DNA of 63,701 bases, from contig JAFXAD010000009.1 in assembly GCA_017522065.1 (NCBI GenBank), forward strand, positions 1 to 63,701, given 5' to 3'. Source of the stretch: Bacteroidales bacterium. GTDB taxonomy: Bacteria > Bacteroidota > Bacteroidia > Bacteroidales > P3. The notes under the pieces were generated by a model. It was not told where the DNA came from and searched no databases. It saw only the letters and a list, made by a program, of their open reading frames with translations. The stretch's first letter is position 1, and every line of letters starts with the position of its first letter. This document shows positions 12,794 through 56,604 of the stretch, one piece after another. A program made the position numbers and the translations under genes.

Positions 12794-13000
12794 TTAGTAA
12801 GGGATAAAGGGTTGGAAAGGTTAAAGGGTTATAGGGTTGGAGGGTTTGCTCCACTTCGGTCGCAGGCCTGCAAGTAGGCGGGGAGGGTTGTAGGGTTATA
12901 AGGGTTGAAAGTTGTTTTCGTTTTCGTCTTCGTTTTCGTACGAAGTTGTTTTCGTTTTCGTCTTCGTTTTCGTACGAAGTTGTTTTAGTTTTCGTTTTTG
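12794..13000 (-). repeat. Composite leader repeat ahead of the 12793 gene (three modules)
   Basis: Read in coding direction: AAAACGAA-rich tract with TTCGTACGAA palindromes (12910-13000), short TAACCC tract, palindromic block (12845-12886) whose plus strand begins TTTGCTCCACTTCGGTCGCA, then a TAACCC/CCTTTAACC tract down to the start codon at 12793. The order and orientation are the same as at 16380-16683, 19500-19672 and 22036-22440. Confidence 0.8.
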
Positions 13001-13600
13001 TTAAGGGGTTTGCAGTGTGGACTTTAGTTCGTCTCTTTTCTTGAGGACGTATAGAATGGTCTGCGCGTAGACTTCATTGTTAGGGCAGTGGAACACGAGG
13101 ACTGTTCGCGTGGAGTCGGAATGGTAGATGAGGTACACGCCGTTGTCGCCCGGCAGTGGTGTACGCGCCATGAACTGCATGTTGGTTGTTTTGGGATGGT
13201 CGTAGGCTTTGCCGTCCTTGTCTGTTACGGGTGTGATGTTGATATTGGCCGATTTGATGTTGCTGAACAGGATCGAGAGCATCGATTCGGTGATGGTGGT
13301 GGTCTTGTTGCCGTCAAGGCTGTCAATGTTGTGTGCGAAAGCGTCGAGACCGGTATTTTTCTTCTTCTTGTCGGTGGTTGGCAGCGCCTTGAGGGCGTTC
13401 ATCATGTGGCGGAAGGCGATGTCGTCGTCGGCTTCGAGCATGGTCACGGTCACCTTCGTGCCGTCGGCGACGGGCAGACCTTCGATGCACGACGCTTCGA
13501 TGCCGCTGCGTTGCGCAAAGGCTTTGTATATGGCGGTTTGGCCTTTCAAAGGTGCTATGATGAGGCAGGCAACAATAAGCGATAGGATTTTTTGTTTCAT
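13001..13600 (-). CDS. Exported protein of unknown function
   Basis: 199 residues with a clear signal peptide (MKQKILSLIVACLIIAPLKG). I do not recognise a domain. Visible features are a Lys run (KKKKN) near residue 80, a likely all-beta C-terminus (GVYLIYHSDSTRTVLVFHC) and no lipobox, so it is probably periplasmic. It is the last gene of a minus-strand set with the ECF sigma factor and its broken partner, separated from the latter by only 19 bases, so it may be a target or partner of that regulatory pair. Confidence 0.75.
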   Translation of the reverse strand: MKQKILSLIVACLIIAPLKGQTAIYKAFAQRSGIEASCIEGLPVADGTKVTVTMLEADDDIAFRHMMNALKALPTTDKKKKNTGLDAFAHNIDSLDGNKTTTITESMLSILFSNIKSANINITPVTDKDGKAYDHPKTTNMQFMARTPLPGDNGVYLIYHSDSTRTVLVFHCPNNEVYAQTILYVLKKRDELKSTLQTP

Positions 13601-13619
13601 ATTAATAAATTGTTATGGA

Positions 13620-13940
13620 TTAATCTAAAGATTCGATTACAGTCAAGAACCGTTGCATAACTTCGTCGGCGTTGCAATTGTCCTCGCAATAGACGCGGAC
13701 GCCTTCTTTCGACATGCTGTAGCTGGAATGTGACTGCTCGTTTTGGGCCACGAGCACATCGGACTTCTGTGATGTCGAGGTTCGGGCTATCAGCACAGCA
13801 GCAATGGCGGCAAGGACAATGGCGGCTGCCGCTGCATAATGCCATTAGGGGGAGGTGCTGCGCTTCCGTCCGGCCTCCATTTCCAGAAGGTTCCTGTGCT
13901 CGTGGTGGATCTGTTCTATCAGTTGGTCAATATTTTTCAT
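13620..13940 (-). pseudogene. Sigma-factor partner (anti-sigma-like membrane protein) with an in-frame stop
   Basis: From the ATG at 13940 (ATGA overlap with the sigma gene stop) 31 codons read MKNIDQLIEQIHHEHRNLLE... up to STSP, then TAA at 13845-13847. In the same frame the reading continues for 74 codons: WHYAAAAAIVLAAIAAVLIA (a single membrane helix), then SYSMSKEGVRVYCEDNCNAD and a natural TAA at 13620. The continuous frame, coupled start and downstream membrane helix show a 106-codon gene interrupted by one nonsense codon. The size and placement are those of a short anti-sigma or sigma-coupled membrane protein. If truncated, the 31-residue product lacks the helix. Confidence 0.75.
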
Positions 13941-14443
13941 GTTCTATGTTCTATCTTGTCATTGATTTCTTTCAGATGCTTTCTGATGCGCGACAGGCGT
14001 GTCTGCACGTTGGTCAGACTGATGCCCAGCATGCAGGCTATCTCGTCGTGTTGCCAGCCGTCGAGGTATAGTCCGATCAGCTGCTGTTCCTTGGTGGGCA
14101 GGAGGGTTATGAGCTCGTGCAAATGGTCGACCTGCTCGTTGTGGGAGGGATTTCCGACTGCGAAGACGCTGTCGTGCTGATTCACTTCATCGTCGATTGA
14201 TATGGTTTGAATTTGTCTTCCGCGGTGCCGTCGCCAACTGATGCCGGTGTTGACGGCCACGCGCCACACCCAGGTAACCCCGCGCGCCGTGGGCCGGTAG
14301 CGTGCCCATCCGCGCCACAGGTTGAGCACGATGTCCTGTCGTAGATCCTCGCGGTCCTCGGCCGTGTGGGCGAAGGAGCGGCACACGTGGTCGATGGCCG
14401 CCGAGTGTTGTTCTATCATTGTCAGGAATGGGTGTTGCATCAT
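13937..14443 (-). CDS. ECF-type RNA polymerase sigma factor
   Basis: I place the start at ATG 14443 (MMQHPFLTMIEQHSAAIDHV), giving 168 residues; the open frame extends 28 codons further but that part reads like untranslated sequence. Region 2 is seen in AHTAEDREDLRQDIVLNLWR and region 4 in LPTKEQQLIGLYLDGWQHDE, with the helix-turn-helix IACMLGISLTNVQTRLSRI. Short size without region 3 marks the extracytoplasmic-function group. It is translationally coupled to the interrupted partner gene and probably governs this small operon and unknown outside genes; if the partner is inactive the sigma factor may be deregulated (inference). Confidence 0.92.
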   Translation of the reverse strand: MMQHPFLTMIEQHSAAIDHVCRSFAHTAEDREDLRQDIVLNLWRGWARYRPTARGVTWVWRVAVNTGISWRRHRGRQIQTISIDDEVNQHDSVFAVGNPSHNEQVDHLHELITLLPTKEQQLIGLYLDGWQHDEIACMLGISLTNVQTRLSRIRKHLKEINDKIEHRT

Positions 14444-14590
14444 ATCCCTATTAAACGCCGTAAAAGGAAAAAAATCACACGCCCCCCCAAAAAAAAGTGA
14501 AACGCAATAAAGGTCATAAGTGGGCAAGTCGTTTTGCCATGCTCCGTCATTTGTGCTATGTGCATCTTTGTCATTTGACGAAACAAAAAA

Positions 14591-14620
14591 GTCGCGAAAG
14601 TCAATCCAGACTTTCGCGAC
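14591..14620. terminator. Bidirectional rho-independent terminator
   Basis: Perfect 12-bp stem GTCGCGAAAGTC / GACTTTCGCGAC with a six-base loop. On the minus strand it is followed by a T-run (plus strand AAACAAAAAA at 14581-14590), so it ends the lipoprotein transcript. Confidence 0.85.
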
Positions 14621-14652
14621 ATGATGAATTTTTTAGTTGTGAAGAATTGCTC

Positions 14653-15069
14653 TTACTGCTCTTTGAAGTTAAGCGTAATCTTGTTGGTGCCGAATAATTG
14701 TGCTTCTTCGCCATCAATGTCAAATGACATTACGATGGTCTTGTCATCCTTGTTGTAGGTGAAATTCTGCTCGCCATCGAAAACGCCCTTCTCGCCATCG
14801 AAGGTATAGGTGCCTTCGTCTGAGTCTCTGTCTGAATACAAGGTCTGTCCCATAGCTGACATGGAAACGTTGACATCCATTGCGTACTTGGTCTCGTCAA
14901 TGAATTTAATTGTCATGTCCATAGCGACATCGGCTGCAATGCCTTCAACGGTGATGTTGTTGGTGTAGTTAGCCTTCCAAGTGGTGCCAGGCAGACTGAC
15001 TTCTTTGCCGCATGATGTAAGAAGCATTACAAAGGCAACTGCTAGTGTGAAAAAAACATTTCTTTTCAT
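14653..15069 (-). CDS. Small lipoprotein of unknown function
   Basis: 138 residues from ATG 15069. The signal sequence ends in a lipobox, VMLLTSCGKE, so the mature protein starts with a lipidated cysteine. The rest is acidic and beta-rich with repeated TY/TF strands (GTYTFDGEKGVFDGEQNF), similar in feel to lipocalin-like or DUF-type Bacteroidota lipoproteins, but I cannot name a family. It has its own promoter at 15120 and a terminator, so it is a single-gene unit. Confidence 0.82.
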   Translation of the reverse strand: MKRNVFFTLAVAFVMLLTSCGKEVSLPGTTWKANYTNNITVEGIAADVAMDMTIKFIDETKYAMDVNVSMSAMGQTLYSDRDSDEGTYTFDGEKGVFDGEQNFTYNKDDKTIVMSFDIDGEEAQLFGTNKITLNFKEQ

Positions 15070-15119
15070 TTGTTTGATTTTTAATTTGTTAAACAAAATG
15101 ACGAGTTAACTGTCTATTT

Positions 15120-15128
15120 GCAAAAATA
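15120..15128 (-). promoter_or_regulatory. -7 element for the small lipoprotein gene
   Basis: Minus-strand TATTTTTGC (plus strand GCAAAAATA) lies about 50 bases before the ATG at 15069 and rules out starts further upstream. Confidence 0.6.
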
Positions 15129-15175
15129 TAAAAATATTTCATTATGACAAAATAAATGTATCCTTTTGAAATTTC

Positions 15176-16366
15176 TCAACGCAGACGGTTGCGTTCGAAA
15201 TTGCCTCGCGTCACGGCAAAGAACAGTGCCACGCCGACAATGTGGATTGCCGCTACGCCAATAAATGCTGCCGCGTAGCCTACGTGTTCGGCGACGATGC
15301 CGCCCAGCAGTATGCCGAGTCCGAGACCGAGGTCCCAGCCGGTGAGGATGGTGCTGTTGGCCGTGCCGCGTTCGTTGTGCTGCGCCAGATCCACAATCAT
15401 GTTCTGCATCGATGGCCACATGTGACCGTTGCCCAAGCCGATGAGCAGCGCCGAGCCGTAGTAGCCGATGGGATGATGCACGGTGGCGAAGAGCAGGTAG
15501 CCAATCGTCGAGACGAGGATGCCCTCGGCGGCGTTGTGCACTATCTTGCCCTCTCGCAGGGCTCGTCCGCCCTGTATGCGCGACAGCATCAGACCGCCGC
15601 TCAGTATGGCGAAGTAGGTGCCAGTGCCGGTGGTGATACCAAGGGTCTCTTTGCTGTAGATGGCTAAGTAGTTGCTCAGCACGCCGTAGCAGAAACCGAA
15701 CACCACCACGTTGAGCCCCACAAGCCATCCGCGCACAAGGAAGAAGCGGTCGAGCGACAGTTTCTTCTTGTCCTGCATCAGCTGACGTTCGGGCAGTGTG
15801 ATGGTAGCGTCGACGGCGAAGCCGATGAGGGCAACGACAAGTGCGAGGATGAAAAGCAGTTGGAAACTGTGGGTCTGCGTGTAGACGTAAACGCCCACGG
15901 TGGGGGCGATGGCGGTGCCCAAGTTGTTGCTCAATCCGTAGTAGCCGATGCCTTCGGTGCGTCGCGACGAGGGCAGCACATCGATTGCCACGGTGCTGTT
16001 GGCTACGGACGAGGCTCCGAAGGGACCGCCGTGCAGGGTGCGGACGATGAAGAATAGCAGCAATGACCCCGCCACCAGATAGCCACCAAATATGACGGCG
16101 TTGAGCAGCAGGGCTATCAGAAGCACCTTCTTGCGAGGAAAGCTGTCGGCCAGGTAGCCGCTGAAGGGACGCACGAGCAGTGCGGCGACGATGTAGCCTG
16201 CGAGCACCAGACCGATAGTGTCCTTGGTGGCGCCAAACTGCTCGCTAAGGTAGAGCGGCAGCAGTGGCGTCAGCAGGTAACCCGAAAAGGCCATGGTGAA
16301 ATTGGCCACCATGACCTTCCAGTAGTTGGCGTTCCAGAGTCGTTCTTGTGGTTTTACATTTTCCAT
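15176..16366 (-). CDS. Major facilitator superfamily transporter
   Basis: 396 residues with about twelve membrane helices. The loop after helix 2 reads GYLADSFPRKKVLL, the MFS motif A, and helix 1 starts FTMAFSGYLLTPLLPLYL. It has the compact build of drug/metabolite exporters of the DHA1 type. The substrate cannot be read; arabinose-efflux-like and multidrug proteins look alike at this level. It starts at ATG 16366, preceded by the composite leader repeat, and points the same way as the TonB receptor upstream, 317 bases away. Confidence 0.88.
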   Translation of the reverse strand: MENVKPQERLWNANYWKVMVANFTMAFSGYLLTPLLPLYLSEQFGATKDTIGLVLAGYIVAALLVRPFSGYLADSFPRKKVLLIALLLNAVIFGGYLVAGSLLLFFIVRTLHGGPFGASSVANSTVAIDVLPSSRRTEGIGYYGLSNNLGTAIAPTVGVYVYTQTHSFQLLFILALVVALIGFAVDATITLPERQLMQDKKKLSLDRFFLVRGWLVGLNVVVFGFCYGVLSNYLAIYSKETLGITTGTGTYFAILSGGLMLSRIQGGRALREGKIVHNAAEGILVSTIGYLLFATVHHPIGYYGSALLIGLGNGHMWPSMQNMIVDLAQHNERGTANSTILTGWDLGLGLGILLGGIVAEHVGYAAAFIGVAAIHIVGVALFFAVTRGNFERNRLR

Positions 16367-16379
16367 AACTACTCCATTA

Positions 16380-16683
16380 ACGCCGTCTGCAGAGATTTAT
16401 TATAAAGGGTTGAAAAGGTTATAGGGTTATAGGGTTATAGGGTTGGAGGGTTATAGGGTTATAGGGTTATAGGGTTATAGGGTTTGCTCCACTTCGGTCG
16501 CAGGCCTGCAAGCAGGCGGGGAGGTTAAAGGTTTGCTCCACTTCGGTCGCAGGCCTGCAAGCAGGAAGGAAGGGTTGAAGGGTTAGAAGGTTGTTTTCGT
16601 TTTCGTCTTCGTTTTCGTACGAAGTTTTCTTCGTTTTCGTCTTCGTTTTCGTACGAAGTTTTCTTCGTCTTCATACAAAGTTG
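16380..16683 (-). repeat. Composite leader repeat ahead of the MFS gene (double palindromic block)
   Basis: This 317-base gap holds no gene. In coding direction: AAAACGAA-rich tract with two TTCGTACGAA sites (16585-16683), two copies of the palindromic block (16532-16572 and 16483-16524), then a run of ATAACCC units (16400-16482). The run looks telomere-like but is irregular. The first 14 bases before the start codon are unique. Confidence 0.8.
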
Positions 16684-18750
16684 TCAGAGTGACAGTTTCA
16701 GTCCTGCAAAGATGGTGCGAGGCAGGGAGGGTCCGTAGATATACTGCGAGTCGCGCTCGTGACCGCTGTCGAGGTCGCGCTGGTAGCTGTCGAAGAGGTT
16801 CTGGATGCCGGCGTCGATTTGTAGCGTGGTGCTTTCGCCGCAGGGAATAGTGTAGGTGGCTTTGAGGGAGAGGTCGAAGAAGGATGGTGTGGTTTCACGG
16901 TGCACATGACCGTCGGCGCCGTGTTTGTCTTGTTCGGCGACGTGGTGGTAGACAATCATGGGACCTGTGAAGATGCCTGAGATGTTGAATTGCAGATGTT
17001 TGGTCGGGGAGTATATTCCGGTGAGGTAGGCATAGAGGTTGGGGGCGCGTTCCATGCGCTGTTCGTATATGCCTTCGTCCCATTCTTTGCCTTGTCCGCT
17101 GTATCGGCTGCTTTGCCAGGTGCCACCAATCTGCAGGCGCATTGTCTCCATGGGCGAAAGCGTCAGCTCGGCATTGAGGCCCTTGACGGTGGCTCCGTCG
17201 GCGTTACGCCGTTCGTAGTGGAGGTATCCGCTTGTGGTGTCGTCAAAGAGCAGCTCGTTGACGAAGGCGTCGGTGATGGATGTGTAGAAGCCTTCGATCA
17301 TGAGGTCGGCTTCGAGTTTGCCGATGTGGAAGCAGTAGTTGACCGATGCTGTTGCTGAATAGGAGCGTTCCATGTGCAGGTCGTCGGCATTGGTGATGCG
17401 GTAGAGTTCGCCGCCGACGGCACCGACGTGGAGGTCCTCGTCGTATACTTGGGGTGCGCGGAATCCTGTTGCGAAGCCGGTGCGGAGGGTGAGATGCGTC
17501 GTGGGTGCGTAGCGGAGGTTGAGTCGGGGACTGACAACGGGGGCATTGACGAGGGAGTGCTTGTCGATTCGTGCGCCGACGAGGAGGCCCCAACGACTTT
17601 GTTTCCATTCGTTCTGGAGGTAGGCGCTGACGATGCCGGTCTGTTGGTGCAGGGTGTCGGGCGAGCCGTATGTGTGGTCAGCGAGGCGGTCGAGGGTGTG
17701 TTCGAGTCCGGCTGTGAGCTCGGCGGGTGCGAACCAGAGTGTGTCGAAATGGCGGCTATAGAGGGCTCCATAGTTGAGGGTCAGCTCGTTGGTGTTGCCG
17801 TAGGCGGTACCGATGGGGTCGTTGTCTTCGCGTTCGCCGTAATAACTCTGACGGTCGACATGCTGCATCGAGGCGAAGAGGGAGGCGTGTCGTATCCCGT
17901 TGGAAGGCAGCCAGTCCCATTTCAGGTTGGCGCAGTGGATGTCGTGCTCGCCGCCTTCGGATATATGGGCCAATGGCGACGGGAGGTCGAGGCGGTCGCC
18001 ACCGCGACGGAAGTCGTGGATGTTGTGGTATTCGAGTCCGAGCTTGGTGACGTCTGAGGTGCGGATAAATCCCTTGAGTCCAAGCATGTGGGCTTTGAGG
18101 AGTCCCACTTCCGAGAATCCGTCGCCGTTGCGGTCGTAGGCGTCGCGATGGCGGTTGTGGCCGAAGATTGCGAGACCGGCACGACGGTCGCGGCTAAGCA
18201 CGGAGGCGTTGAACTGGTTGGAGAGGTCGATGGCGGAGCCTCCGACAAGGCGAGTGGTGTTGGCGATTGAGGCTTCGTTGGCGAGGGGCTCGCGGGTGAT
18301 GACGTTGACGACGCCGGCAATGGCGTTGCTGCCGTAGAGGGCGGAGCCGCCGCCACGAAGGATTTCGACGCGGTCAATAAGGGCTGTGGGCAGTTGGTCG
18401 AGGAGGTAGACACCCACCAGGGAGCTGTTGACTGGACGGCTGTCGATGAGAATCTGCGAGTAGGCCTGACCGAGACCGTTGATACGCAGCTCGTTGGAGC
18501 CGCAGTTCTGGCATGTGTTTTCGACTCTCAGGCCTGTGCCTAAGCGCAGGCTTTCGCCAAGGCTGACGGCGGAGAGGGCTTCCATTTGGTTTTTGTCGAC
18601 GACGCCGACTGCTTGGGGTGCTTCGCCTCGTGAGGTGGCGTGTTGTGTGGCGGTGACAACGACTTGCCGTAGTCTGATGGTGTCGCTGTGGCTCTGGGCA
18701 GAAGCCCCAAGGGTGATGAGGGTAAATATGGTGAAGAATATTTTTTTCAT
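16684..18750 (-). CDS. TonB-dependent receptor, probable metal or metallophore uptake
   Basis: 688 residues: signal peptide (MKKIFFTIFTLITLGASAQS), TonB-box-like stretch RQVVVTATQ, plug domain with SLGESLRLGTGLRVE, then CQNCGSNELRINGLG, ALYGSNAIAGVVNVITREP, and a 22-strand barrel ending in RTIFAGLKLSL. The CxxCG motif in the plug is typical of a subgroup of Bacteroidota receptors of CirA/BtuB type. The gene upstream encodes a His- and Cys-rich exported protein, which points to a metal (copper, zinc, cobalt) or metal complex as ligand; this is inference. Start at ATG 18750 is followed by a perfect signal peptide. Confidence 0.9.
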   Translation of the reverse strand: MKKIFFTIFTLITLGASAQSHSDTIRLRQVVVTATQHATSRGEAPQAVGVVDKNQMEALSAVSLGESLRLGTGLRVENTCQNCGSNELRINGLGQAYSQILIDSRPVNSSLVGVYLLDQLPTALIDRVEILRGGGSALYGSNAIAGVVNVITREPLANEASIANTTRLVGGSAIDLSNQFNASVLSRDRRAGLAIFGHNRHRDAYDRNGDGFSEVGLLKAHMLGLKGFIRTSDVTKLGLEYHNIHDFRRGGDRLDLPSPLAHISEGGEHDIHCANLKWDWLPSNGIRHASLFASMQHVDRQSYYGEREDNDPIGTAYGNTNELTLNYGALYSRHFDTLWFAPAELTAGLEHTLDRLADHTYGSPDTLHQQTGIVSAYLQNEWKQSRWGLLVGARIDKHSLVNAPVVSPRLNLRYAPTTHLTLRTGFATGFRAPQVYDEDLHVGAVGGELYRITNADDLHMERSYSATASVNYCFHIGKLEADLMIEGFYTSITDAFVNELLFDDTTSGYLHYERRNADGATVKGLNAELTLSPMETMRLQIGGTWQSSRYSGQGKEWDEGIYEQRMERAPNLYAYLTGIYSPTKHLQFNISGIFTGPMIVYHHVAEQDKHGADGHVHRETTPSFFDLSLKATYTIPCGESTTLQIDAGIQNLFDSYQRDLDSGHERDSQYIYGPSLPRTIFAGLKLSL

Positions 18751-18754
18751 TTTT

Positions 18755-18905
18755 GAAAGGGGTTGAAAGGTTGAAGGGTTAAAGGGTTAAATGGGTTTGA
18801 TGGGTTTGATGGGTTTGATGGGTTTGATGGGTTGAGAAATTGAAGACTACAACCTGTAAATCTTAACTTTAACTTTAACCTTAACTTTAACGTTAAATTT
18901 TTTTT
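18755..18905 (-). repeat. Leader repeat of the TonB receptor gene with 9-bp tandem units
   Basis: Next to the start codon lies the CCTTTCAACCC-type tract. From 18787 to 18833 the plus strand repeats GGGTTTGAT about four to five times in perfect 9-bp steps, followed at 18860-18895 by TTAACTTTAACC units. Only the third module of the composite repeat is present. The perfect 9-bp units could vary in number by slippage and change the leader length. Confidence 0.7.
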
Positions 18906-19131
18906 AACTGTTCCGTATCTGAGCGGAATGGGTTTATAAGATCTGCCAGTCCTCGCAAATTGATGCCGGTGGCCTTGTGGAGCCGGCAATGCGAGCGGGC
19001 GATTTTATAAACGGGCGAATTGATAGCAATGTTTGGTCGCATCGATTTTGCGATGCAGCCAATCAACATGTACTATATTCGATTAATTGTGTGGGGGAAT
19101 GGGTGTTTGCAAATGCTTACCGTGCAGATGC
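18906..19131. other. Unassigned intergenic segment between His-rich gene and TonB receptor
   Basis: About 225 bases without a convincing gene. It contains a GCCGG...CCGGC inverted pair near 18965-18987 and a direct repeat CTTACCGTGCAGATG at 19117-19141. I looked for a cobalamin riboswitch because of the adjacent receptor and did not find the B12 box. Confidence 0.4.
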
Positions 19132-19464
19132 TTACCGTGCAGCCTGTTGCGGAGGTGCCCGCAGATGGGGCTCTGCAAATTGTTGGTGGACTACATGTTT
19201 GGTGAGATGATTGGACTGGAGTGGTTGTGCAGCCAATTTGAAGAAAGGATTGCCTGTAGCAGTGGGGGTGTAGTCCTGCCCGAGGATGTGACAATAGAGG
19301 CAATCGTTGTGGTGATGGTGTTGTGATTCGAAGTGTCCGACACATTGCAGGCAGTAGTCTTCGATGTCCAGCGTGTCATGATGCACATGTACTGCTGGCA
19401 GAATAACCAGCGGCAGATATGTTACGAGTAGTATAAACGCCGCAATATGAGACTTTTGGTGCAT
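19132..19464 (-). CDS. Small His/Cys-rich exported or membrane protein
   Basis: I start it at ATG 19464 (MHQKSHIAAFILLVTYLPLV), 110 residues, because a -7 element at 19487-19495 lies just upstream. One hydrophobic N-terminal segment (signal or anchor) is followed by HVHHDTLDIEDYCLQCVGHF, SQHHHHNDCLYCHILGQDY and a basic tail. Two CxxC motifs and three His clusters are a clear metal-binding pattern and recall DUF2946-like proteins found near copper genes. It precedes the TonB receptor on the same strand, so both may serve import or sensing of one metal. The metal is not determined. Confidence 0.78.
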   Translation of the reverse strand: MHQKSHIAAFILLVTYLPLVILPAVHVHHDTLDIEDYCLQCVGHFESQHHHHNDCLYCHILGQDYTPTATGNPFFKLAAQPLQSNHLTKHVVHQQFAEPHLRAPPQQAAR

Positions 19465-19486
19465 TTGTCGTCTTCGTTTTCGTGAT

Positions 19487-19495
19487 GCAAATATA
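19487..19495 (-). promoter_or_regulatory. -7 element for the His/Cys-rich gene
   Basis: Minus-strand TATATTTGC (plus strand GCAAATATA) 22 bases before ATG 19464. It decides the start against an ATG further upstream. Confidence 0.65.
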
Positions 19496-19499
19496 CGAA

Positions 19500-19672
19500 A
19501 AAAGTTGAAAAGGGTGGAGGGTTTGAGGGTTTGCTCCACTTCGGTCGCAGGCCTGTAAGCAGGCAGGGAGGGTTGGAGGAATGAAAGTTGTTTTCGTTTT
19601 CGTCTTCGTTTTCGTCTTCGTTTTCGTCTTTGTTTTTGTCTTCGTCTTCGTTTTCGTTTTTGTACGAAGTTG
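19500..19672 (-). repeat. Composite leader repeat ahead of the His/Cys-rich gene
   Basis: In coding direction: AAAACGAA/AAGACGAA tract (19585-19672), palindromic block (19530-19571; plus strand TTTGCTCCACTTCGGTCGCA), short CCTCAAACCCTCCACCC tract, then the promoter at 19487. As at 22453, the repeat lies upstream of the promoter here rather than inside the leader. Confidence 0.8.
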
Positions 19673-19677
19673 AAGGT

Positions 19678-20049
19678 TTAGTCGTTTTTTGCATTAGGGA
19701 CGGCGAAGAGGACGGTCAGTGCGCCTATGGCACCGGCAATGAGGACGATGGGTCGTGCCACTGAGCCGGCTGGGATAAAGACAAAGACGGACAGGAGCAC
19801 GAAGAAAACCATGACGCCTACGGCTCCGGCTTTTTGTGTGGCTGTCATGCCTCCGCGACGCTGGTAGGAACGAATATAGGTCCCGAGCCATGAGGAGAGA
19901 AGCCATTGCTGCAGTCGTGGCGACGAGCGATAGAAGAGCCACGAGGCTAACAAAAGGAAGGGTGTGGTGGGCAATCCGGGCACCACCACACCCATCGTTC
20001 CGAGTCCTACGCAAATGATGCCAAGGACAATAAAAATGGATCGTTTCAT
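19678..20049 (-). CDS. DUF454/YbaN family inner-membrane protein
   Basis: 123 residues, two to three membrane helices, with the family signature GTMGVVVPGLPTTPFLLLAS near residues 17-36 and SWLFYRSSPRLQQWL after it. YbaN proteins are widespread small membrane proteins without a proven function. The start codon overlaps the flavin reductase stop by ATGA, so the two are translationally coupled. Confidence 0.9.
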   Translation of the reverse strand: MKRSIFIVLGIICVGLGTMGVVVPGLPTTPFLLLASWLFYRSSPRLQQWLLSSWLGTYIRSYQRRGGMTATQKAGAVGVMVFFVLLSVFVFIPAGSVARPIVLIAGAIGALTVLFAVPNAKND

Positions 20050-20621: not shown

Positions 20622-20666
20622 TGTTTAGTGGGGTTAAAAGGGTTGGAGGGTTTTAGAGTTTAGAGC

Positions 20667-20775
20667 ACCTCTAATAATTATTTAAAACGGCGAATTGTAC
20701 GAATTAATCGAACTGATATTTATAAATTTGTTTTGCTAACAAAACGCGAATTAAACGAATTTTAAAGATTACCTT
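20667..20775 (-). repeat. MITE-like interspersed repeat, copy 2 (reverse orientation)
   Basis: Plus strand begins ACCTCTAATAATT and continues AAAACGGCGAATTGTACGAA, the reverse complement of the right half of copies 1 and 4. The inner GTTTTGC-GCAAAAC-like inverted motif is seen as TTTGTTTTGCTAACAAAAC. The far end is degenerate (AAAGATTACC instead of AGAGGTTACC). Confidence 0.65.
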
Positions 20776-20844
20776 TAAGAGTTTTAGGGGTTTTATACAA
20801 AACGAGAATTAATCGAATTATTGTGGTTGGCATGAAATAAAAAA

Positions 20845-20866
20845 TCCCGTAGCGTGCGCTGCGGGA
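20845..20866 (-). terminator. Terminator of the DUF362 gene
   Basis: Nine-pair stem TCCCGTAGCG/CGCTGCGGGA with a four-base loop; on the minus strand it is followed by a T-rich run (plus strand AAATAAAAAA). Confidence 0.8.
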
Positions 20867-20887
20867 CTTTGAAATTGGTGTATGTCG

Positions 20888-21868
20888 TTAGTCGATGCTG
20901 ACGATGTGATACTTGCGAGTGCCGAGACCGATTTTTTCGGCGTGTTCGACGGTGTGGATACCGTGCTGCTTCTCGATGCGCTGAATGAGGGCAGTATTGT
21001 CGTCGCCTTCAGTGTTCTTGTGGTTGTATACGAGGTCGAGGCAAGCCTGGTCGAGTGCTACGGGGTCGGTCGAGGCGAGGATGCCGATATTCTTCAGCTC
21101 GGGGGCGTGGGGGTTGCCGTCGCAGTCGCAGTCGATCGAGATGTTGTTCATGACGTTGATGTAGACGATGCCATTGCGACCGGTGAAGTAGTTGTGTACG
21201 CCTTGCGAAGCGGCAGCCATACTCTCGAGGAAGCCGTCCTGGTCGTCGTCAATCCATTCGGTGGTGCTGCGTCCGGCGCTGTGGATGTAGAGTTTGCCGG
21301 CAGTGGAGGCTACGCCGATGCTCTGGTTCTTGAGGACTCCACCGTAGCCACCCATGGCGTGACCCTTGAAGTGAGCGAGGTTGATCATGAAATCGTAGTT
21401 GGCCAAGTGGCTGCCGACGATATCGTACTTGATGTGTGTGGTGTCGACCACGGGGATCTGCATGGTGCCTTCCTCGTCCATGAGGTCGAAGGGAGCGATG
21501 TCGAGGAATCCGTGTTCGCGGATGGTCTTCCAGTGCGCCTTGGTGTCCATGCGGGTGCCGGGATAGGCGGTGTTGCACTCTACAAGGGTGCCGTTCACGC
21601 TCTTGACGAAGTCGCCGATGAGGGCGGGTTGCAGATAGTGGGTGTTGCCACCTTCGCCGGAGCTGATTTTCACGGCTACACGTCCTTCGGCTTTGACGCC
21701 GAGGGCTTCGTAGATCTTGATGAGCGATTGGGGAGTGATTTCGGTAGTCATGTAGACTGTTGCGCCTTCTTCGACAACGGCGGTGGTGTCGACGGCGGGT
21801 TGGCTGTTACCTTTGCAGCTGCAGAGCATCAGGGCTGCTGCTGCGAGCATAAATAGGGTTCTTTTCAT
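20888..21868 (-). CDS. DUF362 domain lipoprotein
   Basis: 326 residues. The signal sequence ends in the lipobox MLCSCKGN. The body has the DUF362 layout: SGEGGNTHYLQPALIGDFVK, then HFKGHAMGGYGGVLKN and later DCDCDGNPHAPELKNIGILA with STDPVALDQACLDLV. DUF362 proteins often carry ferredoxin-like clusters; here only the first part is present and the late Cys residues are few. It appears to be a surface or periplasmic single-gene unit with its own promoter and terminator. Function unknown. Confidence 0.88.
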   Translation of the reverse strand: MKRTLFMLAAAALMLCSCKGNSQPAVDTTAVVEEGATVYMTTEITPQSLIKIYEALGVKAEGRVAVKISSGEGGNTHYLQPALIGDFVKSVNGTLVECNTAYPGTRMDTKAHWKTIREHGFLDIAPFDLMDEEGTMQIPVVDTTHIKYDIVGSHLANYDFMINLAHFKGHAMGGYGGVLKNQSIGVASTAGKLYIHSAGRSTTEWIDDDQDGFLESMAAASQGVHNYFTGRNGIVYINVMNNISIDCDCDGNPHAPELKNIGILASTDPVALDQACLDLVYNHKNTEGDDNTALIQRIEKQHGIHTVEHAEKIGLGTRKYHIVSID

Positions 21869-21936
21869 AATTTAGTTTTATAATAAGATGTTAAATATTA
21901 ACTGTTTATTCTGAAAAAGCTATTCTTTTTGTGAAT

Positions 21937-21945
21937 GCAAAAATA
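21937..21945 (-). promoter_or_regulatory. -7 element for the DUF362 gene
   Basis: Minus-strand TATTTTTGC (plus GCAAAAATA) about 70 bases before ATG 21868. Confidence 0.6.
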
Positions 21946-22029
21946 CATGTTTTATAAAATGTATGTGTTATACATTTTACTTCATTTTTTTCATATTTTG
22001 CATCACCCGTTTTCGTGAGGCAGCGAAAA

Positions 22030-22440
22030 AAACTTCGTACGAAAAAAAACTTCGTACGAAAACGAAAACAACTTTGTACGAAAACGAAAACGAAAACGAA
22101 AACAACTTTGTACGAAAACGAAAACTAAAACGAAAACAACTCTCAACCCTTTCTGCCTGCTTGCAGGCTTGCGACCGAAGTGGAGCAAACCCTTTCAACC
22201 TTTTCAACCCTCCAACCCTTCCTGCCTGCTTGCAGGCCTGCGACCGAAGAGGAGCAAACCTTTAACCTTTCTGCCTGCTTGCAGGCTTGCGACCGAAGTG
22301 GAGCAAACCTTTAACCTTTATCCTTTAACCTTTAATCTTTAATCTTTAATCTTTAACCTTTAACCTTTCTGCCTGCTTGCAGGCCTGCGACCGAAGTGGA
22401 GCAAACCTTTAACCTTTAACCCTTTCACCCCTTTCAAACC
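22030..22440 (+). repeat. Longest composite leader repeat, four palindromic blocks
   Basis: The 724-base gap between the divergent DUF362 and ABC genes contains no gene. In plus direction it reads: a tract of GTACGAAAACG units with TTCGTACGAA palindromes (22036-22140); four palindromic blocks (22155-22188, 22222-22258, 22271-22308, 22369-22408), each with CCTGCTTGCAGG and GACCGAAGNGGAGCAAA; and CCTTTAACC/ATCTTTA tracts between and after. Then follow the promoter at 22453 and about 130 bases of unique leader. The orientation agrees only with the plus-strand gene. Confidence 0.82.
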
Positions 22441-22452
22441 TTCAAATTTTTG

Positions 22453-22461
22453 TATATTTGC
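22453..22461 (+). promoter_or_regulatory. -7 element for the ABC transporter gene
   Basis: TATATTTGC immediately after the composite repeat. The transcript would have a leader of about 125 nt before ATG 22593. Confidence 0.6.
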
Positions 22462-22592
22462 AAAGTTTTCATGCGATACGTTTTTGACTTTATGTTTCCT
22501 TTATTTAGTTTTAAATCATGCGGTTAGCTGTGGATGGAGGTGCCACGTAATTAGACAATTTTTTTTATAAACATATCACAACTTTATTTCTG

Positions 22593-24044
22593 ATGAAGAA
22601 AATACTACTATTGCTTTTTGTCGCCTGCATGGTTGCGTGCGGGCATAAGGCGGAACCGACGGTCACGCTGGAATCGGAAGCCGACATTGCGGGCAAGCGT
22701 GTCGGATACACGTCGGGTACTATTTACGAACTGATGTTTTCGCCGCGTACCGACATCGAGAAGTTCAGTTTCAACATGCAGTCCGATGCCATCGAAGCCC
22801 TCGTCAAGGGTCAGGTGGACGTTGTCCTCGACGACGACTGCAACATTCCCAAGGACGAACAACGCCGCCTGGGCGTGCGGCTGGTTTTGCATGGCGAGAA
22901 GAGTTTTGAATGTGCTTTTGCTATGCACAAGGACAGCAAGGCGCTGTGTGAAGGACTGAGTTTGTTTATCGACAGCCTGCGGTCGACTGGCGAGTTGCAG
23001 TCGATCTACAATCGCTGGTTCGAGTCCGATGTTCCGGGCGAGGTGAGGATGCCCGATTTTGGCCCCAAACCGCAGGGCGAACCTCTGCGCGCCGCTATGG
23101 GCACTACTATGCCGCCGGTCTCTTTCCCCGTCGGCAGCGAAGGATGCGGCTTCGAACCTGAAATACTGACGCGATATGCCTATTCTGTCGGACGGCCTAT
23201 TGAGATTCAGTTTCTGCCGACAGGATCGGCAATAGCGGCATTGCAGAGCAAGAAGGTCGACTTCCTTGGTGGTGCCATTTTCATTACCGAAGAGCGTCAG
23301 AAAACCATGCTTTTCTCTGCCTCGCACTTCAGCGCCCATCCCGGATATTTCGTAAAGGACGCATCAATGCAAGCAAATGTGTCGTTCGGCGACCGCATGA
23401 AGAATGCCGTCAAAAACAACCTCGTCGTCGAGGACCGCTGGCGCTACATCACTGACGGACTTTGGGAGACGGTAAAGATTTCTGTTTTTGCCATACTGCT
23501 GGGCACAGTTTTCGGTTGCGGCATCTGCTGGATGCGCATGAGCCGACGCAAATGGCTGAGCGTCACGGCAAAGGTGTATATCGACCTGATGCGTGGCATA
23601 CCTATGCTTGTGCTTCTGATGATAATGTTCTACGTCGTCCTTGCCAAGGTCGGCGTCGGTGCCACTACGGTAGCAGTGGTGGCCTTTGCTCTCAACTTCG
23701 CGGCATACGTCAGCGAGATGTTCCGCACGGCAATAGGGGCTGTAGGCAAAGGCCAGACGGAGGCCGGACTGGCGTTGGGTTTCACCCGTTGGCAGACGTT
23801 CATCCATATCGTTGCGCCACAGGCACTGCGCAATGTGATGCCCGTATACAAGGGCGAAGCCATCTCGTTGGTGAAGAACACGTCGATTGTCGGCTACATT
23901 GCCATACAAGACCTTACGCGAGCCAGCGACATGATTAGAACCCGCACTTTCGATGCCTTTTTCCCATTGCTTTTGGTGACAATAATATACTTTATCATCG
24001 CATGGGTGCTGGGAAAACTGCTCGATTTGGCCATAAAGAAGTGA
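22593..24044 (+). CDS. Amino-acid ABC transporter, fused substrate-binding protein and permease
   Basis: 483 residues. A lipoprotein signal (MKKILLLLFVACMVACG) leads into a bilobed solute-binding domain of the polar amino acid type (about 25-265, with QSDAIEALVKGQVDVVLDD and SIYNRWFE), then a GlnP/HisM-type permease from about 285 with five helices and the conserved EAA loop EAGLALGFTRWQTFIHIVAP. Fusion of binding protein and permease keeps the receptor tethered to the membrane. Substrate is probably a polar amino acid such as glutamine; specificity cannot be read. The matching ATPase gene follows at 24355 but a MITE-like repeat separates them by 310 bases. Confidence 0.92.
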   Translation: MKKILLLLFVACMVACGHKAEPTVTLESEADIAGKRVGYTSGTIYELMFSPRTDIEKFSFNMQSDAIEALVKGQVDVVLDDDCNIPKDEQRRLGVRLVLHGEKSFECAFAMHKDSKALCEGLSLFIDSLRSTGELQSIYNRWFESDVPGEVRMPDFGPKPQGEPLRAAMGTTMPPVSFPVGSEGCGFEPEILTRYAYSVGRPIEIQFLPTGSAIAALQSKKVDFLGGAIFITEERQKTMLFSASHFSAHPGYFVKDASMQANVSFGDRMKNAVKNNLVVEDRWRYITDGLWETVKISVFAILLGTVFGCGICWMRMSRRKWLSVTAKVYIDLMRGIPMLVLLMIMFYVVLAKVGVGATTVAVVAFALNFAAYVSEMFRTAIGAVGKGQTEAGLALGFTRWQTFIHIVAPQALRNVMPVYKGEAISLVKNTSIVGYIAIQDLTRASDMIRTRTFDAFFPLLLVTIIYFIIAWVLGKLLDLAIKK

Positions 24045-24075
24045 GTTAAATTAAAAATTAAAATTAATAAAGGGT

Positions 24076-24232
24076 ACCTCTGATAATTTCTTTTCAAACG
24101 GCGAATAAATACTTGTAAACCTTAACCTTATTTTGAACACGAATAAAAACAAATAACACGAATGGATTTCTACAACCCAATGAATTTGTTTTGCAAGCAA
24201 AACACTAATCAAACGAATTATAGTGGTTACCT
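24076..24232 (+). repeat. MITE-like interspersed repeat, copy 3, inside the ABC operon
   Basis: Begins ACCTCTGATAATTTCTTTTC and contains AAACGGCGAA and TTTGTTTTGCAAGCAAAAC, ends near TAGTGGTTACC. It lies between the permease and ATPase genes of one transporter. Between 24277 and 24345 follow two further AT-rich units reading GAACACGAATAAATATTTAT and GAGCACGAATAAATATTTAT. Confidence 0.65.
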
Positions 24233-24354
24233 TAATTATTATTCTCATAAATGAGAATTCTAAAATTTCAATATTTTGAACACGAATAAATATTTATAAA
24301 CCTTAACTTTTATTTTGAGCACGAATAAATATTTATAAAGTTAAATTTTTAGAA

Positions 24355-25440
24355 ATGATTACTGTAAAGCATCTTACCAAACAATATATTGATCCGGACG
24401 GTTCTGTTTTCCAAGTACTGAAAGATGTCAACTGCGAAATCGAACGCGGCGAAGTAATAAGCATTATCGGACCTTCGGGTACGGGCAAGAGTACCTTCCT
24501 CCGTGCCCTCAATCTCTTGGACCCGCCCACCAGCGGCGAAATTCTTTGGAATGGCGAGAACATCCTTGCCAAAGGCTACCCCCTCAACAAGTTTCGTCAG
24601 AAGATGGGCATGGTGTTCCAGAGTTTCAACCTCTTCGAGCATCTGAGCATTCTCGACAATGTGACATTGGGACCTATGAAACTGCTGGGCCTGTCGCGTT
24701 CGCAAGCAGAGGAGGAGGCAATGACCATGCTGCGCAAGGTGGGCATGGGCGAGAAGGCAGCCTCGATGCCGGGCGACCTGTCGGGTGGGCAGAAGCAGCG
24801 CGTGGCTATAGCACGTAGTCTGGCCATGCACCCCGATGCCATCCTTTTCGACGAGCCGACGTCGGCACTCGACCCGACGATGGTGGGCGAGGTGCTCAGC
24901 GTAATGCGGCAATTGGCAAGCGAGGGGATGACGATGCTCATCGTAACCCACGAGATGAAGTTCGCCCGCAACGTGAGCACTCGTGTATTCTTTATGAATG
25001 AAGGAATTATCTATGAGGACGGAACCCCTGAGCAGATATTCGAACATCCGGTCCATAGTGCGACGAAGGCGTTCGTGCAGCGCATCCACAAACTGGTGTT
25101 CGAGGTCGACGGAGCCGATTTCGACATGCTCGACGCGAAGTCGCAGATGGGGCGTTTCTGCATAAAATATAATGTAGCATCGAAGGTCGAAGCCGCCAAT
25201 CGGATTGTCGACCTGATGGGCCAGTCGGTGATGTCGCGTCTATATCCCTACACCTTGCGCCTGACACACAGCGAGCAGACTGAGGTGACGGCCCTCGACT
25301 TCATGAAAGAGAATATTCAGGATTCGCCGCTGCGGATGCCGCAAACCGACAGCACCCTTCTTGACAAGCTTCGCGAACACTGCCAAGAGATTGTCGAAGA
25401 ACCGACAACGCGCGGATTCAGAGTGAAGTTTATACTCTGA
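24355..25440 (+). CDS. Amino-acid ABC transporter ATP-binding protein with C-terminal extension
   Basis: 361 residues. Residues 1-245 are a complete GlnQ/HisP ATPase: Walker [10 protein letters not shown] (about 39-47), Q-loop, signature [15 protein letters not shown], Walker [14 protein letters not shown] and switch His in THEMKFA. The remaining 115 residues ([20 protein letters not shown] to the end) are not part of normal GlnQ and carry no motif I recognise; a regulatory ACT-like or ligand-sensing domain is possible. It works with the fused permease at 22593-24044 at the inner membrane. Confidence 0.92.
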
Positions 25441-25463
25441 TAGGGAACGCTTAATGTATGTAA

Positions 25464-25499
25464 AAAAGAGGCTTGCACCTGTTGGGGCAAGCCTCTTTT
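25464..25499. terminator. Bidirectional terminator between the ATPase gene and gcvT
   Basis: Thirteen-base arms AAAAGAGGCTTGC / GCAAGCCTCTTTT with a ten-base loop; A and T runs on both sides serve both convergent transcripts. Confidence 0.88.
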
Positions 25500-25517
25500 C
25501 AATAAATCTGTCGTGAA

Positions 25518-26624
25518 TTATCCCTCGTAGAAGGGCATCTTGACGGTGATGGCCTTGAGGAGTTTCTCGCGGATCTTGATGTAGATTTCGGTGCCGATCT
25601 TGGCGTATTCGGCCTTGATGAGGGCGGTGCCGATGTTCTTGCCGGTGCTGGGGCTGGGAGAGCCGCTGCGGACCTCGCCGATCTTGTTGCCTTCAGCGTC
25701 GCAGACATCGTAGCCGTTGCGGGCGATACCGCGGTCAATCATCTCGAAACCGGCGACTTTGCGTTTGAAACCGGCAGCCTTCTGAGCCAGGAGGAGTTCC
25801 TTGTTGATGAAGTTGTTGTTCTCGGCTTTCAGCTTGACGATGAATGCCAACGGAGCCTCGAGGGGGCTGACGGTGTCGTCCATCTCGTGGCCGTAGAGGG
25901 CGAAGCCCTTCTCGAGACGCAGGGTGTCGCGGCAGCCAAGACCTGCGGGCATAATGCCGTATTCCTTACCAGCCTCGAAGACAGCGTCCCAGACCTCGAT
26001 GGCTTTCTCCTTGGGGATGTAGATCTCGCATCCGCCGGCGCCGGTGTAGCCCGTGGTCGAGAGGATGATGTTGGGAATGCCTGCGAAAGTGAGGATCTTG
26101 AAGGTGTAGTACTCCATGTCGACTATGTTCTCAGAGGTCAGCTTCTGCATGGCCTTGAGTGCGTTGGGACCTTGGACAGCAAGCTGAGCCCACTGCTCGC
26201 TCTCGTTGACGAAGTCGCGACCGAGCTCCATGCCCATCTTGTCGGCAATCTGGCTCATCCAATTCCAGTCTTTGTCGATGTTGGCAGCGTTGGGGACCAT
26301 GAAATACTCATCGTCGTGAACGCGATAGACGAGCATGTCGTCTACGACGCCACCCTGACCGTTGGGCAGGCAGGTGTACTGCACCTTGCCGTCGAAGAGG
26401 TCCTCGACGTTGTTGGTGGTGACATACTGCATGAAGTGCTTGGCGATGGGGCCTTTGGCGCGGAACTCGCCCATGTGGCTGACGTCGAAAACGCCAACGT
26501 TGTTGCGGACGTTGTTGTGCTCTTCGACAAGACCTGTGTATTGGATGGGCATGTTGTAGCCTGCGAATTCGGCCATCTTAGCGCCGAGTTTGATGTGTAA
26601 ATCTGTGTAAGGGGTTGTTTTCAT
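25518..26624 (-). CDS. gcvT: Aminomethyltransferase (glycine cleavage system T protein)
   Basis: 368 residues, standard for GcvT. It begins MKTTPYTDLHIKLGAKMAEF with the folate-binding fold that follows, including VFDVSHMGEFRAKGP and TGYTGAGGCEIYIP, and ends with the C-terminal barrel. It transfers the aminomethyl group from the lipoyl H-protein to tetrahydrofolate, releasing ammonia. The other gcv genes are not in the window, as is usual in Bacteroidales where they are scattered. No defect is visible. Confidence 0.96.
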   Translation of the reverse strand: MKTTPYTDLHIKLGAKMAEFAGYNMPIQYTGLVEEHNNVRNNVGVFDVSHMGEFRAKGPIAKHFMQYVTTNNVEDLFDGKVQYTCLPNGQGGVVDDMLVYRVHDDEYFMVPNAANIDKDWNWMSQIADKMGMELGRDFVNESEQWAQLAVQGPNALKAMQKLTSENIVDMEYYTFKILTFAGIPNIILSTTGYTGAGGCEIYIPKEKAIEVWDAVFEAGKEYGIMPAGLGCRDTLRLEKGFALYGHEMDDTVSPLEAPLAFIVKLKAENNNFINKELLLAQKAAGFKRKVAGFEMIDRGIARNGYDVCDAEGNKIGEVRSGSPSPSTGKNIGTALIKAEYAKIGTEIYIKIREKLLKAITVKMPFYEG

Positions 26625-26787
26625 TTATATAAATTTAAAGTTTGTTGTCGATTGATTTACATGGTATTTGCTGTTACATGTCCTAATCTAACGATTAGTT
26701 TCTTTTTTTATTGTATGCAAAAGAAAAAAAAGGCAATAAAACGAACGGATTCGCGTTTGCATCTGTAAATAAAACATAACCGACAGC

Positions 26788-27303
26788 ATGATTAGATATA
26801 TTTCCGACAGGGATCACTACAGCGAAGTTCTTGCCCGTTGCGAGGGGGTTAAACATGACCTATGGATTGCAACGGCCGACATCAAGGACCTGTATGTCGA
26901 AGACGGGAATAGGGTAGTGCCGTTTCTGTCGGTCCTCGACAAGCTGACAAAACGCGGCGTCGACGTCCGGCTGTTGCACGCCAAGGAACCTGGAGGAAAC
27001 TTCCGCGACGATTTCGACCGCTTCCCGGGCCTCTGGTCCAAGCTGGAGCGCAAACTTTGCCCGCGAGTACACTTCAAGATTATGGTCTTCGACTGCTCGA
27101 TGGTGTATATCGGCTCGGCCAACCTAACGGGTGCGGGTATCGGTATGAAGGGCGACGGAACACGAAATTTCGAGGCTGGCATACTTACCGACGAGACCGC
27201 CCTTGTCGATGCCGCTGCCGACCACCTCGACAGCGTATGGCAGGGTGTGCACTGCAAGAAATGCCGTCGCAAAGACTTCTGCGGCGACCGGATTGAGAAT
27301 TGA
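26788..27303 (+). CDS. PLD-like domain protein with one HKD-type motif
   Basis: 171 residues. One catalytic half is present: H95-F-K97 followed by GSANLTGAG at 109-117, so a dimer would be needed to form the active site, as in Nuc-type PLD nucleases. The C-terminus carries CKKCRRKDFC, a likely metal-binding or structural cysteine cluster. Enzymes of this type hydrolyse phosphodiesters of nucleic acids or lipids. The gene is preceded by about 160 bases of AT-rich sequence and followed directly by the composite leader repeat of the next gene. Confidence 0.82.
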   Translation: MIRYISDRDHYSEVLARCEGVKHDLWIATADIKDLYVEDGNRVVPFLSVLDKLTKRGVDVRLLHAKEPGGNFRDDFDRFPGLWSKLERKLCPRVHFKIMVFDCSMVYIGSANLTGAGIGMKGDGTRNFEAGILTDETALVDAAADHLDSVWQGVHCKKCRRKDFCGDRIEN

Positions 27304-27435
27304 AATTCGTACGAAAACGACTTCGTACGAAAACGAAGACGAAAACGAAAACAACTCTTCACCTTTTAACCTTTAACCTTTAACCTTTAACCCTATAACC
27401 CTTTAACCTTTAACCTTTAACCTTTCAAACCCTTT
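27304..27435 (+). repeat. Composite leader repeat ending at the acetyltransferase start codon
   Basis: In plus direction: GTACGAAAACG tract with two sites (27306-27355), then nine or so units of CCTTTAACC/CCCTATAACC (27358-27435) that run directly into ATG 27436. The palindromic block is missing here. Module order and orientation agree with the other copies. Confidence 0.8.
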
Positions 27436-56600: not shown

Positions 56601-56604
56601 GGGA

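Follow-up and report, generated by a model that had tools for sequence, protein, structure and literature searches.

A palindromic repeat and short-period arrays of outward polarity in the intergenic spacers of a Bacteroidales genus

Several gaps between genes in contig C4 (JAFXAD010000009.1), a 63,701-base stretch of a Bacteroidales genome (GCA_017522065.1) that is referred to here as the window, are occupied by a composite of three repeated modules: M1, which is built of 34-nucleotide (nt) units, M2, which is a short palindromic repeat, and M3, which is an array of short units with a C-rich coding strand. The genome is a 2.62 Mb draft in 62 contigs (90.8% complete), taken to be that of an uncultured organism, from a genus that probably lives in the rumen. 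We found that M1 and M3 belong to a larger population of short-period arrays that follow a polarity rule, and that the orientation of these arrays is set by the gene end that they touch and not by the strand of the gene. On balance we regard the composite as a mosaic: slippage arrays, together with a palindrome of selfish type, lie in spacers that tolerate them, and selection fixes the orientation on the start side. A first-pass annotation of the window had described the composite as a strand-linked unit that spreads ahead of genes. The three modules, their order and their coordinates were confirmed by repeat analysis, by Tandem Repeats Finder (TRF) and by genome-wide pattern counts above those of reversed controls; the other claims fared unevenly.

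Array orientation follows the gene end

Repeats were detected with TRF and by pairwise repeat comparison within the window, and gene ends throughout are those of a codon-based gene caller run for this analysis. Arrays with units of 5-12 nt were counted for polarity and sorted by type of gap. The genus sample comprises 1.09 Mb of stretches from six genomes, in which 130 strand-skewed arrays were classified; arrays located in coding sequence (124), lacking strand skew (61) or lying at the end of a stretch (4) were omitted. Stretches of G033 came from M2-bearing contigs, those of G078 and G005 from a transporter locus, and those of G002 and G036 from contigs known beforehand to hold matches to the M2 core. 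The own-genome sample consists of the window, fragments around module matches and 400 kb chosen independently of the matches.

Within codirectional gaps of the genus sample, the coding strand of the arrays is C-rich in the start zone (25 C-rich versus 1 G-rich) and mostly G-rich in the stop zone (30 G-rich versus 6 C-rich), and the gap middle holds 19 C-rich and 5 G-rich arrays. Convergent gaps contain 6 arrays that face outward, with the G-rich strand reading away from the nearest gene, and none that face inward; for divergent gaps the numbers are 8 and 2. Codirectional gaps of the own genome gave 20 C-rich and 0 G-rich arrays in the start zone, 25 and 4 in the middle, and 8 and 3 in short gaps, and arrays at most 30 nt from a start are C-rich in 29 cases versus 3. 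When the nearest gene edge lies within 50 nt and near-equidistant arrays are dropped, outward arrays outnumber inward ones by 26:3 at starts and by 47:10 at stops. The observation that the tract reaches the start codon is thus upheld for M3-type arrays, which abut starts with a C-rich coding strand in both samples (20:0 and 25:1). The claim that it is a 5' and not a 3' element fails, since arrays also stand directly behind stop codons and in convergent gaps.

The rule holds for many units, most of which lack quadruplex potential. In place of a GGGNATC unit with quadruplex potential, the units listed include GGTTAAA, GGGTTATA, GAATTAA and others, and 61 of 86 near-edge arrays are without the quadruplex motif that was used. 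In codirectional gaps M1 has the same orientation as the gene in 17 cases and the opposite one in 1 where it lies nearer the stop, and 10 and 8 where it lies nearer the start; its A-rich strand faces outward in 4/4 convergent and 4/5 divergent gaps (9 copies in coding sequence and 1 at an edge were omitted). Because M1 favours stops and M3 favours starts, the fixed order of M1 followed by M3 amounts to two outward-facing arrays. Coding-strand orientation, which had been claimed for all modules, therefore stands for M3 beside starts but neither for M1 near starts nor, as described below, for M2 in relatives. A sample from other families (0.18 Mb, four genomes) held 10 arrays, one of them skewed.

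Polarity at starts and at stops

Bacteroidota make little use of Shine-Dalgarno pairing, and selection for an unstructured, G-free ribosome-loading region is a likely cause of the polarity on the start side. In computed folds, start-adjacent C-rich arrays have a mean unpaired probability of 0.68 between -20 and +10, versus 0.51 when the array is flipped; the native orientation is the more open one in 45/54 arrays, and the minimum free energy is -11.1 kcal/mol native versus -20.8 kcal/mol flipped. This computed openness counts among the points in favour of the earlier interpretation. Avoidance of start codons was rejected as the sole cause, for the bias stays at 18:1 among start-side arrays in which start codons are scarce or lacking on the G strand (own-genome fragments added), so the gene caller's choice of starts is not its source.

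The supply of stop codons was likewise rejected as the sole cause of the stop-side bias, which it explains in part at best: the bias is 37:12 for arrays with at least one stop-free frame on the C strand and 21:11 for those with stops in all three frames. Arrays next to tRNA genes would offer a translation-free test, and no clear array was seen in the printed flanks of 23 tRNAs.

The M2 palindrome

M2 is about 37-47 nt long, with 37 nt for the shortest form in the window. Aligned copies have in common CTGCCTG, a hairpin with compensatory stem changes, and GGCCTGCGACCGNAGTGGAGCAAA. In an alignment fitted to the covariance model, 50 cells carry changes on both sides of the stem versus a shuffled mean of 20.6, and 0/500 shuffles scored as high; a separate M2 alignment was independent of the model. 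Covariance-model searches of genomes, run with stricter filters and a limited number of candidates scored per genome, matched 40/59 genus genomes at E 0.001 or better, with up to 46 copies in relatives and 24 matches in the own genome. Outside the genus, 3/118 genomes gave one weak match each (21-25 bits; E 0.0001). The exact M2 core was found in 43 stretches of named genome contigs, a set from which the records nearest the window may be omitted; 39 are labelled Bacteroidales or Bacteroidetes and 13 have titles that mention the rumen. A phage origin of M2 was rejected, a search of a viral collection having given no exact match to the core.

Of 101 covariance-model matches in relatives, 79 were examined and 22 dropped, the latter being 5 repeat fetches of one locus, 3 extra copies in an already counted gap and 14 weaker or partial matches (<=34.4 bits). 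Gaps between genes hold 54 of the 79, and in codirectional gaps 16 copies have the same orientation as the genes and 24 the opposite (p 0.27); the others comprise 7 in convergent gaps, 7 in divergent gaps, 20 in called genes, 4 at edges and 1 repeat of a gap. The own-genome copies that were examined lie in gaps, with the exception of a copy at a short called gene's end and of a divergent pair that lies inside a gene; a hand count in codirectional gaps gave 8 same and 3 opposite. Random placement relative to gene strand and copies behind 3' ends, which by the first-pass annotation's own standard would count against it, are accordingly what we observed for M2, and in part for the arrays. The three modules do not behave as one strand-linked 5' unit, in that M1 favours stops and M2 in relatives is indifferent to strand and occurs in coding sequence as well.

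Core matches in coding sequence that resemble coincidences, such as stretches in L142, L143, L147 and L148, which we take from their reading frame to be GroEL-like, were not used as M2 copies. Seven other loci (L173, L180, L181, L182, L191, L194 and L195) carry single or tandem copies of a 28-nt repeat, GCTATGGCCAGCGACCGAAG(T/A)GGAGCTT; it contains the M2 core but has another conserved context, and is perhaps an insertion-sequence end. A second palindromic repeat, TACGCAAGC(A/G)TCC(C/T)T(G/A)CTTG, is present in spacers of the lineage (L149:2773-2869 and L022 near 1445).

A REP-associated tyrosine transposase (RAYT; REP, repetitive extragenic palindrome) was considered as the mobiliser of M2 and rejected, as M2 copy number was unlinked to it across 59 genomes (rho 0.23, p 0.08). 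Among the matches listed, 31 Y1-transposase loci contained 1 full M2 and one weak partial match. The own genome has two Y1_Tnp matches, one of them strong, and this gene (L201:1380-2720) is flanked in a REPtron-like manner by other palindromes (CAGCCGTTTCAACGGCTGG, GCACCCCTTTAGGGGTGC and others). Another Y1 transposase, at L360:700-1900 in G002, is surrounded by CCCCAGACNGCCGTCTGGGG and GCTCCCTTCGGGAGC repeats, and a single M2 copy stands amid these.

M2 inside protein genes

Of the 20 in-gene copies, 17 lie on the strand of the gene and encode peptides such as LPGSKGDTACDRSGAN; the other 3 do not, one being in a weakly supported gene. The genes with same-strand copies match valyl-tRNA synthetase (valS), UDP-glucose dehydrogenase, RimO, a YegS-type lipid kinase and a DUF58 protein, among others. 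All 17 belong to one length class (span 47 or 50), whereas 22/54 intergenic copies share that residue class modulo 3. G-poor short repeats like those in gaps flank several of the in-gene copies. In the UDP-glucose 6-dehydrogenase of G036 (L358:1022-2503), M2 lies inside a 52-residue stretch that faces 6 residues of a solved homologue. The genus thereby joins the lineages with palindromic elements inside protein genes.

For valS, 59 genomes were matched and 30 loci (L389-L418) read. M2 fills the linker in 1/30, and the other 29 hold different short sequence, some of it repeats with a 9-nt period. The linker, which follows an SGW motif, is variable across these loci, and several are filled in frame by short repeats such as SDQSDQSDK. 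The 52-residue stretch of the L358 dehydrogenase also holds a second repeat-like peptide, PARPQGAALNSDEINQ; elsewhere in this protein a 53-residue stretch faces 14 residues of the solved homologue, and there is a further stretch of 19 residues.

Layout of the composites in the window

In the own 2.62 Mb genome, the M2 core GCGACCGNAGNGGAGCAAA has 14 exact sites and 29 sites at <=3 mismatches versus 4 for the reversed pattern, M1 (TTCGTACGAAAACGAA) has 68 sites at <=2 mismatches versus 2, and M3 (CCTTTAACCTTTAACC) has 109 sites at <=1 mismatch versus 0. TRF detects arrays of 34-, 49/69- and 6-8-nt period in the window, and repeat analysis paired 16481-16584 with 22206-22309 (93% identity over 104 nt) and 12900-12995 with 22056-22151 (93% over 96 nt). 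Composites of all three modules are confined to 12.8-22.4 kb of the window; elsewhere, in the own-genome stretches that were fetched, the modules are paired or single. At 12794-13000 the composite occupies all of the space from stop codon to start codon, and at 27304-27435 M1 and M3 do so together, the covariance-model search having found no M2 in that gap. The M3 of the composite at 19.5 kb is weak. The features are as follows.

12799-12846, minus strand: M3 array of ~8-nt units whose coding strand is C-rich; 5 nt separate it from the start codon at 12793 (TRF, array table)
12844-12883, minus strand: M2 palindromic repeat (covariance model R1, 50.9 bits)
12909-13002, minus strand: M1, 34-nt units with TTCGTACGAA, extending to the upstream gene's stop codon at 13001 (TRF, sequence)
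16405-16484, minus strand: M3 array of ATAACCCT octamers (TRF)
16482-16521, minus strand: M2 copy (covariance model, 52.9 bits)
16531-16570, minus strand: second M2 copy (covariance model); the relative contig L149 has one copy only
16593-16682, minus strand: M1, adjoining the stop codon at 16684 (TRF, sequence)
18760-18833, minus strand: M3-type array, 9 nt before a start codon (array table)
18863-18900, no strand assigned: 6-nt array of opposite composition, with a G-rich coding strand (TRF, array table)
19488-19495, minus strand: promoter-like TATATTTG box that separates the composite from the start at 19463 (sequence)
19529-19568, minus strand: M2 copy (covariance model, 55.6 bits)
19588-19663, minus strand: M1 array; the stop codon at 19678 is 14 nt away (TRF, sequence)
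22026-22141, plus strand: M1 in a divergent gap (TRF)
22151-22190, plus strand: M2 copy 1 of 4 (covariance model)
22220-22259, plus strand: M2 copy 2 of 4 (covariance model)
22269-22308, plus strand: M2 copy 3 of 4 (covariance model)
22306-22368, plus strand: M3 array of CCTTTAA heptamers (TRF, array table)
22367-22406, plus strand: M2 copy 4 of 4 (covariance model, 57.5 bits)
22402-22446, plus strand: M3 array (TRF, array table)
22453-22460, plus strand: TATATTTG promoter-like box downstream of M3 (sequence)
27306-27352, plus strand: M1, separated by 2 nt from the preceding stop codon, which ends at 27303 (TRF, sequence)
27365-27425, plus strand: M3, followed after 10 nt by the start codon at 27436 (TRF, array table)
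56604-56758, minus strand: M3-type array of 155 nt (TRF)

A partial copy of the composite had been placed at 18755-18905; its M3-type array is real, but the neighbouring array at 18863-18900 has the opposite composition. The idea of a transcribed leader is opposed at two loci, 19488-19495 and 22453-22460, where the composite is probably upstream of the promoter because a promoter-like TATATTTG box, which we take to be the Bacteroides -7 consensus, lies between it and the gene. The composites matched no known RNA family in an Rfam-type search, in which one tRNA alone reached the gathering threshold in the window. Two further repeats were noted in the window: a 101-nt repeat in two copies at 63386-63594 (95% matches) that contains GAGGTCGCTGCGCTC, and a 54-nt pair in two gaps (20722-20775 and 24180-24233; 81% alike) with ATAAATTTGTTTTGCTAACAAAACGCGAATTAAACGAATT-like sequence.

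Contig L149 of a near relative matches the window at 93-94% identity over three segments (10022-12799, 13009-14442 and 15180-16428). Its counterpart of the 12794-13000 spacer, between flanking genes that are 93% identical, measures 97 nt, is unrelated in sequence and contains another palindromic repeat, which indicates that the composite is not required there. The spacer matching 16367-16683 has one M2 and fewer array units, and unit number thus changes. Most of window 14443-15179, a stretch that holds a called gene, is missing at L149:4305-4467. In the rest of the relative's bin, the first 229 nt of another contig match at 92%, longer matches reach 67-74%, and repeat matches of 37-58 nt reach 85-90%.

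Origin of the composite

The mosaic reading, to which we give a modest preference, would account for the composite as follows. Two unrelated kinds of repeat would accumulate in the tolerant spacers of the genus. M2, which is largely confined to the genus and is found in gaps and in protein genes, would be a small palindromic element of the REP type or of the type of the Rickettsia palindromic elements (RPEs). M1 and M3 would be short-period arrays that grow and shrink, presumably by slippage, a length difference having been seen at one locus. Two outward-facing arrays with a palindrome between them would yield the order stop-M1-M2-M3-start, and selection at the ribosome-loading region would fix the start side.

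A number of points weigh against this reading. Gene boundaries are predicted ones, taken from the gene calls of this analysis. Short gaps in the six-genome sample hold 21 G-rich and 7 C-rich arrays, and arrays of G002 that lie at most 30 nt from both a stop and a start are G-rich in 15 cases and C-rich in 4; among start-adjacent arrays 17/71 are G-rich, 9 of these from G002. The stop zone of the own genome, with 14 G-rich versus 6 C-rich arrays, is alone not significant. The folding test is a weak one, as flipping an array alters its composition too, and translation does not account for the stop-side bias, which stop-codon content explains in part only. The replacement of spacers was seen in one relative contig and two gaps, and L149 may be mis-binned, because long matches elsewhere in its bin reach only 67-74%. 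A transposase partner of M2 was not found among the Y1 loci, in the own genome or across the 59 genus genomes.

An alternative is that the composite is one modular 5' element (a transcribed leader or a platform for protein binding) and spreads ahead of genes as a whole. Four composites of the same order within 10 kb, the abutment of M3 on starts, and the presence of the composite at 12794-13000 where the matching L149 gap lacks it are what such an element would produce, and M2 is indeed multicopy. However, the random orientation of M2 in relatives, the occurrence of M2 with arrays inside coding sequence, the preference of M1 for stops and, at two loci, a promoter-like box between composite and gene argue that there is no single strand-linked 5' unit, and we consider this explanation unlikely. 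About equally improbable, in our judgement, is a DNA-level process at gene edges that writes G-rich repeats outward, for example by end extension or by slippage of fixed polarity that starts at the gene border, so that the arrays of neighbouring genes meet head to head. It would accommodate an outward polarity that is alike at starts, at stops and in all gap types, four gaps of G002 (L277, two in L278, and L280) in which the same or a similar unit is inverted on both sides, and the report of the same rule in Xanthomonas and Nostoc (PMC4692102). It would call for an enzyme or intermediate of which none is known, half of the pattern is covered by start-side selection, short gaps contain exceptions, and the flanks of 23 tRNAs, where the idea could be tested, showed no clear array.

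It is also conceivable, though very unlikely, that the composite is a Rho-utilisation or terminator element in which the M3 RNA, with CC every 7-9 nt and almost no G, and the M2 hairpin end or tune transcripts between genes. In favour of this, M2 can form two hairpins; yet arrays just behind stops have a mostly G-rich coding strand, the opposite of a C-rich loading site, and M2 is oriented at random in relatives. Regulation by a G-quadruplex, in which the folded G-rich strand tunes expression, is the explanation in which we place least credence. Some arrays have repeated GGG runs, the polarity agrees with the 2015 report by Rehm et al., and arrays with the quadruplex motif face outward in 23 cases and inward in 2, but motif-free arrays show the same polarity (50 outward, 11 inward). 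A bolder proposition is that the outward polarity holds for bacterial intergenic DNA in general, whatever the sequence of the arrays, and arises from one DNA-level process by which repeats grow away from gene borders, with palindromes such as M2 riding the arrays into gaps and protein linkers; this too we hold to be unlikely. Since the genus is so rich in skewed arrays (130 in 1.09 Mb), it would allow models of selection and of mutation to be separated.

Comparison with known repeat systems

Among the matches listed, the literature, to the extent that its text was accessible, described neither M2 nor polar arrays for rumen Bacteroidales, although MacGregor 2015 does report start-adjacent heptamers in Bacteroidetes. 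Palindromic elements within genes have been named for Rickettsia, Wolbachia and Methanocaldococcus. The RPEs (Ogata et al. 2000) are given as 105-146 bp long (PMC2229807), and those of R. conorii as ending in CGTC (PMC3733652). RPEs resemble M2 as short palindromic repeats that lie both in gaps and in frame inside conserved protein genes (here 17/79 are same-strand in-gene copies), and they differ from M2 in that M2 is ~37-47 nt long, has no CGTC tag and sits in short-period arrays. M2 works in an RPE-like manner and is not filed as an RPE.

REP elements form bacterial interspersed mosaic elements (BIMEs). PMC3733652 describes GTAG- and CGTC-tagged REPs as palindromes of 20-40 bp in many copies, with CGTC repeats reported in Bacteroidetes and REPs inside genes in several species. 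M2 is likewise a short palindrome with a covarying hairpin that is present in many copies, mostly between genes. It departs from REPs in that 0/33 aligned copies have GTAG in the terminal 8 nt or CGTC anywhere (5 hold GTAG inside), and in that it does not flank RAYT genes, 1 full copy having been found in 31 Y1 loci among the matches listed.

The short tandemly repeated repetitive (STRR) heptamers of filamentous cyanobacteria are intergenic short tandem repeats of ~7 nt, and the arrays described here are likened to them by description only. The TAACTGA heptamers of Beggiatoaceae occur also in Cyanobacteria and five Bacteroidetes (MacGregor 2015; PMC4679880). In F. litoralis 12/14 sets run forward towards a start, and a single reversed set directly follows a stop; Paludibacter propionicigenes has two sets. 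Like the arrays of the present genus, they end a few nucleotides before start codons; unlike them, they have one fixed unit, and the word stem 'palindrom' is absent from the paper.

The arrays also resemble the GGGNATC/GGGGAYT heptamers that Rehm et al. (2015; PMC4692102) reported from Xanthomonas and Nostoc. The G-rich strand of these heptamers is the antisense one up to 50 bp from a start and the sense one up to 50 bp from a stop, and the authors found no role for the polarity. Both kinds of array are short-period and intergenic, stand between aligned genes and vary in length between relatives, and in both the G-rich strand reads away from the nearest open reading frame at either end, with short gaps excepted here. 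The heptamers are of one quadruplex-forming type, whereas the arrays of this Bacteroidales genus are built of many unrelated 6-12-nt units, some with an embedded palindrome. What had been reported for a single quadruplex heptamer in two distant lineages may thus become a testable rule that is seemingly independent of quadruplexes.

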